64,000 nucleotides of DNA. Source: Arthrobacter sp. PAMC 25486 (GTDB taxonomy: Bacteria > Actinomycetota > Actinomycetes > Actinomycetales > Micrococcaceae). Both the position numbers and the translations under genes were made by a program. Position 1 is the first letter of the stretch; each line of letters begins with the position of its first letter. Below the pieces are notes generated by a model that did not search any database, was not told where the DNA came from, and was given only the letters and a program-made list of their open reading frames with translations. The DNA lies in contig NZ_CP007595.1 of the NCBI RefSeq assembly GCF_000785535.1, forward strand, positions 1,054,001-1,118,000, given 5' to 3'. Positions 5,895 to 40,066 of this stretch are shown in pieces.

Positions 5895-6254
5895 ATTTGC
5901 ATCATAGCCCTGGCGCAGATACTTGGGTCAGCGGCCTCGGATGTCCTGTTCTGCGCCGAAGTGGACACCGTCCACTCGGTGCCCGATGCTCCAGCGCATG
6001 CTTGCGGCGTAATGGTGCGCCGGTTCGGCAGTGGGGCACCGTTGAGGGCAAACGGTGCGCAGCTCCAGTGGCACGCGCGCCGTCTGTGCCGCATCCTGAA
6101 CTCATGCGCAGCAGTCACTGCGAGTTCTGCGCATGCCTAAAGTTCCCTGAAGACATACGCGCAACTCCTTGTTACTGGTGCGTAGGGGCGCCTAGATGCA
6201 TCAGTAATAACGAGTGGTGCGTAGGTGCGGCGTCGTTTAGGCTCGCACGTCCAT
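5895..6254. other. Gene-free stretch with one perfect hairpin
   Basis: No convincing coding frame: all open frames lack family features and a ribosome site. An 8-bp perfect inverted repeat, GCACCGTT / AACGGTGC, lies at 6036-6058 with a 7-base loop. It could act as a terminator for the MepB-like gene read from the right, but no U-tract follows. Two imperfect copies of a GTGCGTAGG-containing phrase occur near 6180 and 6217. Confidence 0.6.
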
Positions 6255-6725
6255 TTAGGCCGAGTACAGCTCCAGCACCCGGGCCGCGGGCGCATCCATC
6301 GGCAGAAAGTAGTCGCACTGCCACGTCTGGCTGCGCCGGGCCTGGGCACTGGTGGTTTCAACGTCGGGCGTGTAGACGCGCATGGCCCGTTTGCCTCCCT
6401 TCCCGTCAATGGACACCACGCCGTGGCGGGCCAACGCTGCTTCGGGGAACACGAACTGTCCCAGCCCCGCACCCTGGCCGGCCTGGATGACAAACAGTGC
6501 AACGCCGTCGTGCGTGTCAAAGGGCCGGATGGGACCGTCCGCGGACCGCTGCCACAGCGTCACAAACTGCCCCAATTTGGTGGGCGTGGTCTTGGCCCTG
6601 CGGAACACAGCGGGCCGGCCGCCCAGCAAAAGGGAGTGGGCACGGTAGTCGGCACCCTCGGGCTCGGGCGCGACATCGTCCCAGGCCAGCCCCGCGGCCG
6701 CCCACATTTCCATCGACTGCTGCAT
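6255..6725 (-). CDS. MepB family protein
   Basis: A 156-residue protein matching the MepB family by its succession of motifs: KLGQFVTLW near 50, a HDGVALFVIQ stretch near 75, GQFVFPEAAL near 90, GKRAMRVYTP near 112 and SQTWQCDYF near 132. MepB is named after a gene beside the Staphylococcus MepA multidrug pump; its activity is unknown. No efflux pump gene is adjacent here. It is divergent from valS, with 53 bases between the two starts. Confidence 0.85.
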   Translation of the reverse strand: MQQSMEMWAAAGLAWDDVAPEPEGADYRAHSLLLGGRPAVFRRAKTTPTKLGQFVTLWQRSADGPIRPFDTHDGVALFVIQAGQGAGLGQFVFPEAALARHGVVSIDGKGGKRAMRVYTPDVETTSAQARRSQTWQCDYFLPMDAPAARVLELYSA

Positions 6726-36277: not shown

Positions 36278-36350
36278 GCCTCGGTAGCTCAGCGGATAGA
36301 GCAGGAGCCTTCTAATCTCTTGGCCGCCGGTTCGAGTCCGGCCCGGGGCA
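36278..36350 (+). tRNA. tRNA-Arg(UCU), integration site
   Basis: Plus-strand cloverleaf: acceptor GCCTCGG/CCGGGGC (one T-G pair), D arm GCTC/GAGC, anticodon loop CTTCTAA (anticodon TCT), T arm CCGG-TTCGAGT-CCGG, discriminator A, CCA not encoded. The anticodon stem has a C-T mismatch at its lowest pair and a G-T at the top, so it is a little weak. Its 3' half is repeated at 40009-40050. Confidence 0.93.
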
Positions 36351-36372
36351 CAAAATGTCGCTCTGACCTGCG
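36316..36372. repeat. attL-type direct repeat
   Basis: From TCTCTTGG in the anticodon arm through the tRNA 3' end, core GCCCGGGGCACAAAA, then TCTGACCTGCG at 36362-36372. The same order and nearly the same spacing occur at 40009-40066, with substitutions mainly in the T arm that keep pairing. Confidence 0.82.
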
Positions 36373-38327: not shown

Positions 38328-38486
38328 TCACCGTCTCGAGAAAGTCATTCCTTCGTGTCCGAGGTGATGTTTCTGTTCTCGCAGAAGGCAGCCCCGAACC
38401 TCAACGAACATGCGCTTCTTATGCTCCTCCACGGCAATCTGGCCAAAGGGGTGCTTCGCCAACATCTCTTCGGTAGATGTTGCCAT
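38328..38486 (-). CDS. Possible 52-residue protein
   Basis: Minus-strand ORF starting at ATG 38486 after a good ribosome site (GGAGG nine bases upstream within TGGAGGGAGGCACAGG). The product begins MATSTEEMLAKHPFGQIAVE, is rich in charged residues (VEEHKKRMFVEVRG) and ends HEGMTFSRR. No family recognised. The gap 38487-38681 between it and the Abi gene holds nothing else. Could be a small accessory protein of the island or chance; the ribosome site is the main support. Confidence 0.4.
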   Translation of the reverse strand: MATSTEEMLAKHPFGQIAVEEHKKRMFVEVRGCLLREQKHHLGHEGMTFSRR

Positions 38487-38681
38487 CCTGTGCCTCCCTC
38501 CACATCTTCAATCAGCGTTGACTCCGTCGCTGCCCAAGAGCATCTACCAATAAATTCAAGTTCCACGAGGTCCTGACATGTCCGCGACAGGCCAGACCAT
38601 CTTGCTTGTTGTCGTTGACGCACATGACCGGGCTGAAAACCGGAGGTGGTGGACGTTCATTCAGCCACGGTGGCTCTGCCG

Positions 38682-39392
38682 TCAAGGTTTCGGACGTGCC
38701 TTCAGGGTGGCGCCGATTTTCTCCACGGATGCGAACCAGGAGAGTAGGTCCTGGTCGATAGCGCCGATGACTGTCCTCATGTTGGCCAGCTGTGCAGCGA
38801 TGCTGCTATTGATGAGTGGTTCTAAATGCGCCACCCTGTTTCTTAGGCGGTAGACACCGTCGACCGCCCGTTCAAGCTCGTGGACCGGTCGCCGAAGATG
38901 CGGGAAGGCATAGTGCAGTGCTTCATCCCAGAGCAGTTGCTTGCCCAGGTCCTTGCGTCCTGGGAGAAGGAATCGCCAGGTCCCCATGGACAAAGCGGCA
39001 AGAATGTCCGCGTGCAACGGATCACGCTGATCCTTGGGCCGGGCCCTGGTTGAATGACCGGCGCGATTCTTCGCTTCTGGCAGGTCCCGGCCAACGACGC
39101 GCTCCAGCAAGATGGAAGGATCCAGGAGCCAATCGCTGGAATGCGACTCCCGCGTAGTCGGGTCAACCTGACCGGCATTCCAAAGGCATAATTGCTCGTC
39201 CATAGCGTTACGCAAGACGACCTCAAAAATGTGCAGAGCCTCGTATACAGCCCCAGAAAGTTCAACGTTCCACCGATAGAGCCGCACAGCACCCTGCAGG
39301 CTCCCGGCCGTGTCGAGGTACGGCGCCAACCTCGGCGGACTCAGCCGCCGCAGCAGGACCGCCTCAACACTTATTTGTTCGCGCCTGTTCAC
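38682..39392 (-). CDS. Abi_2 (AbiD/AbiF-like) family protein with HEPN motif
   Basis: 236 residues, GTG start. Family pattern: ISVEAVLLRRLSPPRLAPYL (7-26), AVRLYRWNVELSGAVYEALHIFEVVLRNAMDEQL (35-68), LSMGTWRFLL near 134-143, and YRLRNRVAHLEPL (181-193). R184 and H189 form an Rx4H HEPN ribonuclease-type motif, with N185 beside R184. Such proteins cause abortive phage infection or act as RNA-targeting toxins. The start is probably leaderless: TACAGT (39406-39401) ends eight bases before GTG. A candidate small RNA begins divergently within 20 bases. Confidence 0.85.
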   Translation of the reverse strand: MNRREQISVEAVLLRRLSPPRLAPYLDTAGSLQGAVRLYRWNVELSGAVYEALHIFEVVLRNAMDEQLCLWNAGQVDPTTRESHSSDWLLDPSILLERVVGRDLPEAKNRAGHSTRARPKDQRDPLHADILAALSMGTWRFLLPGRKDLGKQLLWDEALHYAFPHLRRPVHELERAVDGVYRLRNRVAHLEPLINSSIAAQLANMRTVIGAIDQDLLSWFASVEKIGATLKARPKP

Positions 39393-39403
39393 AGTAGTAA
39401 ACT
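39375..39403 (+). promoter_or_regulatory. Promoter of the candidate small RNA
   Basis: TTGTTC (39375-39380) and TAAACT (39398-39403) with exactly 17 bases between. It points to the right, away from the Abi gene, and its -35 lies inside the first codons of that gene. ACAGT-N5-ACTGT across 39391-39405 is a small inverted repeat in the shared promoter. Confidence 0.55.
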
Positions 39404-39410
39404 GTAGTTG

Positions 39411-39485
39411 AAGACAGGGGCAGGTTCCCTGTTATGGATTACTGAGGGTCCCGTAGCCAGGAGCTGCGGGGCCCTCAGCTTTTAA
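39411..39485 (+). ncRNA. Candidate structured small RNA linked to the Abi/HEPN gene
   Basis: Plus-strand RNA of about 75 bases predicted from promoter, structure and terminator. Hairpin 1: ACAGGG (39414-39419) with CCCTGT (39427-39432), 7-base loop. Then an unpaired TATGGATTA. Hairpin 2: a continuous 16-bp stem, 39442-39457 with 39463-39478 (two G-U pairs), loop CAGGA, followed by CTTTTAA, a U-tract. Abi_2/abiF genes are known to be accompanied by a conserved structured RNA (the abiF motif, from comparative genomics); whether this one fits that model needs a covariance search. Confidence 0.6.
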
Positions 39486-39489
39486 CACC

Positions 39490-40008
39490 TGTCACCAATG
39501 ATCCCGGCGATCTCGTCGCCCACTCTCCCCTTGGCAATCCCCCGCGGGTATTCCGCGACCTACTAACTGTTCGCAATTTGGCTTTCAGAATTGATCCCAA
39601 TTTGGGCTGACAGGGTTGGCCTGTTGGAGGCAAACGGTCCCCAAATCATGGCAAATGACGCTCTACTCCGCCGACAAGAAGTCACCAAAAAGCATCTTAA
39701 ACGCCGATCTTGGCCGTACATCGGGCGGGACCGAAACCACGCCCTGAACAACGCGAATCAGTGACACACGACGGCTGTCCTTTCACAACTGGTGACATAC
39801 CGTCCACCGTGTCGATGAACCTGCGAACAGCCATCAAACTGCAGCTCCGGCACTTTGCTGCAGGTGCTCGTCACGTTTTACTCACGTTCTTCAACGACAA
39901 CCCGCAACAATTATTGGCATGCCAAAGGGGCCCCGTCGCGCCAGATTCACCCGGGAACACGGGGTTTTTGACCGTCAACGGAGTCTGTTGGCATGAGAGT
40001 CCTGAGTT
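39490..40008. other. Gene-free right part of the island with arm-type repeats
   Basis: No coding frame with family likeness or ribosome site. TCACGTTTTAC (39871-39881) and TCACGTTCTT (39882-39891) in tandem match the pair at the left end (36410-36430) in 19 of 21 positions, with the same spacing and orientation. In the excised circle the two pairs would flank the core on either side. Confidence 0.6.
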
Positions 40009-40066
40009 TCTCTTGGTCGTGGGTTCAATTCCCGCCCGGGGCACAAAAAAGCACCTCTGACCTGCG
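40009..40066. repeat. attR-type direct repeat, tRNA-Arg 3' half copy
   Basis: TCTCTTGG at 40009-40016, a T arm GTGGG-TTCAATT-CCCGC, core GCCCGGGGCACAAAA at 40034-40048 and TCTGACCTGCG at 40056-40066. Internal spacing equals that at the tRNA gene except for one extra base. Probably the original chromosomal 3' end of the tRNA, displaced when the island supplied a new one. The 40067-40390 stretch to its right holds no gene I can support. Confidence 0.82.

Follow-up and report, generated by a model that had tools for sequence, protein, structure and literature searches.

A gene for an abortive-infection-type protein with a HEPN motif lies, in the window (the whole stretch of DNA analysed, 64,000 nucleotides), beside a segment that could encode a small folded RNA on the other strand, and the question is whether the two belong together and, if so, what the RNA would do to the protein. 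The first-pass annotation had paired an Abi_2/HEPN gene, carrying an Rx4H motif, with a divergent RNA preceded by a -35/-10 pair with a 17-base spacer and consisting of a first hairpin and a 16-bp continuous stem with a U-tract. It also described the two promoters as overlapping, saw an island setting, suggested a relation to the abiF motif of Rfam, and named covariation at homologous loci and presence of the RNA beside close homologues as checks. The features considered here are listed in Table 1.

Table 1. Features of the abi locus and its surroundings in the window.
Feature	Position	Strand	Basis or remark
att-like core: 3' half of tRNA-Arg(TCT) (36278-36351) and flank	36316..36355	+	
Second att-like core, 85% identical, 3693 bp further	40009..40048	+	
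abi ORF, 236 aa, GTG start	38682..39392	-	Abi_2-like/PD-T4-5-like HEPN protein
HEPN Rx4H motif, R184-N-R-V-A-H189 (RNRVAH)	38826..38843	-	conservation in 48-row alignment
-35 element TTGTTC of divergent RNA	39375..39380	+	sequence; within first codons of abi
-10 element TAAACT of divergent RNA	39398..39403	+	conserved TANNNT
Candidate abi -10, TACAGT	39401..39406	-	sequence; overlaps RNA -10
Structured small RNA, about 75 nt	39410..39484	+	covariance models R1/R2
Hairpin 1, 8 bp, loop CAGGU	39413..39433 (39413-39420/39426-39433)	+	33/39 aligned relatives keep loop
Hairpin 2, 16-bp continuous stem, terminator-like	39442..39478 (39442-39457/39463-39478)	+	folding, covariation
U-tract TTTT after hairpin 2	39480..39483	+	sequence

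The abi gene and its protein

The abi start has no evident Shine-Dalgarno sequence. The RxxxxH signature of HEPN RNases is present in the protein, as first described, and it is conserved across a 48-row alignment that includes the window protein, with N185, R186, A188 and H189 invariant and R184 and V187 kept in at least 90% of rows. The Abi_2 label holds for the family, 42 of the 48 aligned members matching the Pfam profile (PF07751) at E <= 0.01 (best 5.6e-06), whereas the window protein itself scores 19.9 bits, under the gathering threshold of 25.6. The PADLOC model for PD-T4-5 is matched by 48/48 aligned members at E <= 0.01, and by the window protein with 31.3 bits (E 2.9e-08). The predicted fold is similar to AbiF, the top fold match being the AbiF:ncRNA structure 8vz6 (PbAbiF). 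When PDB sequences were searched with the profile of the protein, only coiled-coil and comparable chance matches came up, and these were discarded. The protein is best explained as an Abi_2/AbiF-group HEPN RNase, with the PD-T4-5 defence family as its nearest relative, and by analogy with AbiF it is probably a dimer.

A covarying two-hairpin RNA upstream of the gene

Folding of the plus strand at 39406-39484 reproduced both hairpins of the first description (-46.3 kcal/mol, z -5.77, with 0/200 shuffles as good). The reverse strand of the same segment folds more weakly, though still better than chance (-36.0, z -5.08), so fold energy alone cannot fix the strand. The RNA begins about 17 bp outside the abi gene and does not overlap it. 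Its -35 and -10 elements were located as described, separated by 17 bases on the plus strand, and among 34 distinct upstream regions the first T of the -35 is conserved at the same spacing in 73% and the G in 70%. TACAGT on the gene strand, if it is the abi -10, would yield a near-leaderless mRNA, and its position over the -10 of the RNA agrees with the overlap noted earlier; a gene-strand TANNNT occurs at this place in many relatives and is absent from L057, L058, L060 and L071.

Covariation was measured in two sets of sequences. In the first (14 sequences, 13 distinct), 96.5% of cells pair and 8/20 pairs show changes on both sides; the covariation score was reached by 0/500 shuffles, and the count of further pair types was at chance (233/500 shuffles). 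The second, A9, aligns 39 RNAs, 38 of them distinct, by sequence alone. It excludes L046 (the window itself), L073 (a duplicate of L011), one of two identical copies in L072, L070 (the decayed copy of the own genome), and the rows resembling terminators (L065, L066, L079, L083, L085 and L087-L090). Here 95.2% of cells are paired and 13/20 pairs are changed on both sides, none of 500 shuffles matched any of five covariation measures, and partners slid out of register pair in 35–57%. The expected covariation is therefore present, and it extends to both hairpins: 5/8 pairs of hairpin 1 have both-side changes (96.7% of cells paired), as do 8/12 modelled pairs of hairpin 2 (94.2%). The loop CAGGU is absent from the distant copies L120, L122 and L123, and the U-tract is poorly conserved, with at least four T in the last six aligned columns in only 9/39 relatives.

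The suggested abiF motif, by comparison, was not borne out. Up to E 10, Rfam matched nothing in 38400-39900, RF03085 included, and gave no RF03085 match anywhere in the window at the gathering threshold; in 12 further homolog loci there was none at E <= 0.5. Elsewhere, an RF03085 abiF motif (39.3 bits) occurs at L027 3084-3119, on the same strand as a distant abi homolog and about 860 nt ahead of it, with no clear link to it or to a partner gene.

Strand of the RNA

A true G-U pair turns into A-C when the opposite strand is read, so the two readings of the alignment can be told apart. The 38 distinct RNAs hold 116 G-U cells vs 9 A-C cells on the plus strand (45 vs 5 in 13 sequences after clustering at 75% identity), and pairing drops from 95.2% on that strand to 81.1% on the gene strand. 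The promoter speaks for the same direction: a TANNNT on the RNA strand starts 11-13 bases before the RNA in 28/28 copies linked to a whole or broken abi gene, against a mean of 1.6 and a maximum of 8 in shuffles (n=1000), and the -10 is kept in 8/12 RNA copies not counted as divergently linked. Both lines uphold the original reading of the RNA as divergent from abi.

The converse reading puts the RNA on the gene strand, where it would serve the abi mRNA as a 5' leader or attenuator in the manner of AbiD1 and RCd22. The gene strand does fold, and L010, L011 and L036 show GAAA loops on it. Against this stand the loss of pairing, the G-U excess and the near-fixed -10 of the divergent strand, as well as the promoters of gammaproteobacterial relatives, which are divergent in every chosen case (see below), and we regard a gene-strand leader as very improbable.

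Linkage of the RNA to abi genes

For every homolog at least 50% identical, about 110 bp of upstream DNA are conserved between subgroups while the DNA beyond differs between them, which was the first hint of an RNA family; the nearest relatives also share some flank beyond this point. Among 197 relatives, the RNA motif adjoins 13/13 homologs at least 50% identical over at least 164 residues, a count that leaves out a 49-residue match in G191, and it also lies beside an abi gene fragment in G026. A search of the family with covariance model R1 gave matches in 24/395 genomes at 33 places, 30 of which were taken as loci, window included. An abi gene, whole or broken, is divergent and adjacent in 22 of these and present as a remnant in one; seven have none, and two of those (L065 and L066) resemble plain terminators. 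Model R2 matched 12/396 order genomes and 5/394 class genomes, own genome counted in each. The order search added 14 loci, six with an abi gene or piece, all divergent, and eight without, three of them terminator-like. The four class-wide matches outside the own genome were weak and terminator-like, apparently chance terminators, and were not considered further.

We also approached the question from the protein side, with 62 loci fetched by protein in named genomes. The RNA is directly upstream on the opposite strand in 35 (E <= 0.001), and it was detected beside 24/26 intact toxins at least 43% identical, the exceptions being L110 and L121. Together with the 13/13 above, this places the RNA beside close homologues, as the first-pass annotation would have it. 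In 11 of the 35 RNA-bearing loci (L104, L115, L116, L119, L124, L129, L130, L134, L141, L147 and L150) the toxin is frameshifted, truncated or fragmentary and the RNA is kept, with the proviso that some frameshifts may be sequencing or assembly errors. Three broken toxin pieces (L118, L131 and L142) had no detected RNA; two of the three lie near a contig start. Loss of the toxin with retention of the RNA, the reverse being rare, is the pattern that an antidote predicts.

Some RNAs stand by themselves. L044, L056, L061, L069, L076, L077 and L084 have a -10 and no abi homolog by tblastn in the surrounding stretch, and could be retained antidotes; judged by eye, ORFs adjoining L077 and L084 resemble helix-turn-helix/PIN proteins. 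The own genome holds a second copy (L070, G000:C1:516529-516603; 86% identity across 77 nt). It lacks a -10 at the expected position, has one hairpin-1 pair broken and unrelated genes around it, and is likely a decaying RNA copy. In L036 the RNA is tandemly duplicated (5955-6050 and 6403-6498), and the duplication also takes in the abi 5' end and the end of the preceding gene.

Distant relatives

At L012, whose protein is 34–38% identical, the RNA (E 3.7e-07) is downstream of the gene, convergent, with its own TAAAGT; L016 has a similar layout at an E-value of 0.3 only. Unfiltered R2 searches of 14 of the 22 named loci below 40% identity placed the best match in the divergent upstream window in 10/14, with single E-values of 0.04–0.6; in L155 and L133 it fell outside that window, and in L132 and L144 there was none up to E 2. 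Folding of five upstream segments from named loci of this range gave z of -3.7 to -5.6. No clear RNA came up at the own-genome paralog or in four further long stretches, the best match (E 0.02) being one in L042 that lies about 5 kb away from the gene, and consensus folding of five distant upstream regions, from pieces cut at unequal places, yielded no consensus. A terminator scan of 43 distant homologs found a hairpin with a T-run on the divergent strand in 39/43 and on the gene strand in 26/43 (divergent better in 30, gene strand better in 10, tied in 3), which lends weak support, as start points were hand-set from alignments, no shuffles served for comparison, and a symmetric hairpin counts for either strand. 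Clade-specific upstream hairpins were seen in distant abi clades (L025, L027 and L041; L022, L023 and L039; L017, L020, L030 and L032), and several such clades have a divergent-strand TANNNT near the start codon with a terminator-like hairpin on the same strand; these are possibly further divergent RNA families.

For gammaproteobacterial PD-T4-5-like genes we chose seven loci (L154, four of 25 listed rows and two of 40 listed rows), one of them on the E. coli plasmid pLAO39. The divergent strand carries TTGAC-N-16-18-TANNNT in 7/7 and the gene strand in 0/7, with 0.11 expected in shuffles; the seven form two groups of similar sequences and hence are not independent. The promoter is followed by a hairpin and a terminator-like stem. 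Four segments folded with z of -1.33, -2.54, -6.13 and 0.28 (the L157 and L154 pieces stop before the terminator T-run); given these mixed values, the RNA body is less certain here than the promoter. The seven RNAs resemble the window RNA in layout, not in sequence, and none matched an Rfam family above its gathering score.

Proposed function and alternatives

The pairing of a HEPN gene with a divergent RNA, as first read, is thus supported by covariation, linkage and strand evidence, and the part that the RNA would play can be proposed from AbiF. We consider it likely that the locus is a two-component toxin-antitoxin or abortive-infection module, with a HEPN RNase as toxin and a dedicated divergent RNA as antitoxin. 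The RNA would be transcribed from its own promoter, opposite in direction to the toxin, and fold into two hairpins; by analogy with the action of AbiFr/RCd22 on AbiF, it may then attach to the HEPN dimer, whose RNase site it would block or hold. With overlapping -10 elements and the RNA -35 placed within the opening codons of the toxin, a strongly transcribed RNA would hold toxin transcription low, and its own promoter would keep the RNA in excess. Once host RNA is shut off or degraded during phage infection, this short RNA would be the first to go, and the freed RNase, presumed toxic, would stop growth before phage release.

The antitoxin role is favoured by the covariation, the strand, the conserved -10, and linkage across subgroups whose further flanks differ; by an RNA that outlives its toxin (11/35 broken toxins vs 2/26 intact toxins without detected RNA); and by the 8vz6 fold match and the divergent promoter of the chosen gammaproteobacterial relatives. 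Weighing against it, toxin-less RNAs are not rare (7/30 family and 8/14 order loci, 5/15 terminator-like), L110 and L121 have intact toxins without detected RNA, RF03085 is unmatched, and the U-tract is poorly conserved. Since in AbiF and the described type III systems the RNA comes before the toxin on the same strand, the present RNA could also have another job. It might be a cis-only regulator, acting by promoter occlusion or transcriptional interference, with a folded body that merely ends a short transcript; the overlapping -10 elements would suit this, as would hairpin 2, which resembles a terminator and, in the window and its near relatives, has a U-tract. Interference would not call for conservation of the RNA body; nevertheless, hairpin 1 covaries and its loop is kept in most aligned copies; moreover, the downstream, convergent RNA of L012, with a promoter of its own, cannot use the toxin promoter jointly, and the -10 persists in most copies not counted as divergently linked. 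A purely cis-acting RNA is in our view unlikely.

Two further readings are less probable. The RNA could be a sensor or guide that activates the HEPN protein, directing or licensing cleavage in a Cas13-like way, with the protein inactive by itself. AbiF with its RNA has been proposed as the root of Cas13 (PMC12373285, PMC12737573), which lends this some appeal; the alignments, however, show no spacer-like variable segment of fixed length, and broken toxins with an intact RNA are commoner than intact toxins without a detected one, which an antidote fits better, making an activator distinctly unlikely. Lastly, the element might be an ordinary bidirectional terminator or a mobile hairpin repeat unlinked to the toxin, as the solo own-genome copy without a -10 among unrelated genes and the terminator-like class-wide matches could suggest. 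With a divergent toxin gene, whole or broken, at 22/30 family-search loci, a remnant at one more, and covariation in both hairpins, this is scarcely credible.

Comparison with known systems

The antitoxin reading places the locus near AbiF-AbiFr/RCd22, an Abi_2 HEPN toxin with a non-coding RNA antitoxin. RCd22 of C. difficile lies upstream of abiF on the same strand, is co-transcribed with it and contains two RF03085 motifs; it is described as neutralising the AbiF toxin by direct RNA binding and as lowering abiF by premature termination, and the HEPN residues R202/H207 of AbiF are required for toxicity (PMC12373285). The window RNA differs in that pairing and promoter assign it to the opposite strand, where it has a promoter of its own, and in having no RF03085 match. 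PD-T4-5 is a plasmid-borne E. coli Abi defence with an Abi phenotype, a distant relative of AbiF/D (PMC9519451), whose PADLOC model all aligned family members share. The available part of that account mentions no RNA component (PMC9519451); here, a divergent RNA was examined in relatives such as L161. In the type III families (ToxIN, CptIN, TenpIN/AbiQ), RNA repeats, a terminator and the toxin follow one another, in one bicistronic operon as for ToxIN (PMC4147584). The present locus shares with them an RNase toxin, a folded RNA and a link to phage defence, and by the same analogy its RNA may neutralise the toxin by direct binding; in place of tandem repeats in one operon with the toxin, it has a single two-hairpin divergent RNA. 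As in type I systems (PMC4147584), the RNA has its own promoter on the opposite strand; unlike them, the toxin is a HEPN protein, and, as there is no overlap between RNA and toxin gene, antisense pairing would be possible only with a leader upstream in the abi mRNA.

In the literature searched, none of the matches listed described a divergent RNA accompanying Abi_2/PD-T4-5 genes. A sister set of HEPN defence genes, protein-only in databases, appears to carry an RNA partner of opposite orientation. We lean, with some reserve, towards the view that PD-T4-5-like Abi_2/HEPN genes, in Actinomycetota and Gammaproteobacteria at the least, generally have a second component that has been overlooked, a divergently transcribed structured RNA. 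It would be an autonomous antitoxin, able to switch gene ends and to outlive the toxin as a solo antidote, in a branch of AbiF/Cas13 with the opposite RNA orientation. Were this to hold, PD-T4-5-type defence could be tested as an RNA-controlled toxin, the RNA could be annotated with the covariance model, and the locus would offer a comparison case for the origin of RNA control over HEPN RNases.

Genomic setting

The island setting seen at first pass takes the form of a 3.7-kb module holding abi and the RNA, bounded by att-like repeats of the tRNA-Arg 3' end. A mobile, island-borne module of this kind fits a defence role. Congeners carry the core many times over, often at intervals of a few kb, and it lies 525-552 bp beyond the RNA 3' end in 6/11 RNA places of the genus. 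It consists of the tRNA-Arg 3' half and a conserved flank (CTCTGACCTGCG), with ACTCACGTTTT-like direct repeats nearby. In G005, eight att-like cores lie between 1260478 and 1335003, and such arrays look like small modules serially integrated at tRNA-Arg.
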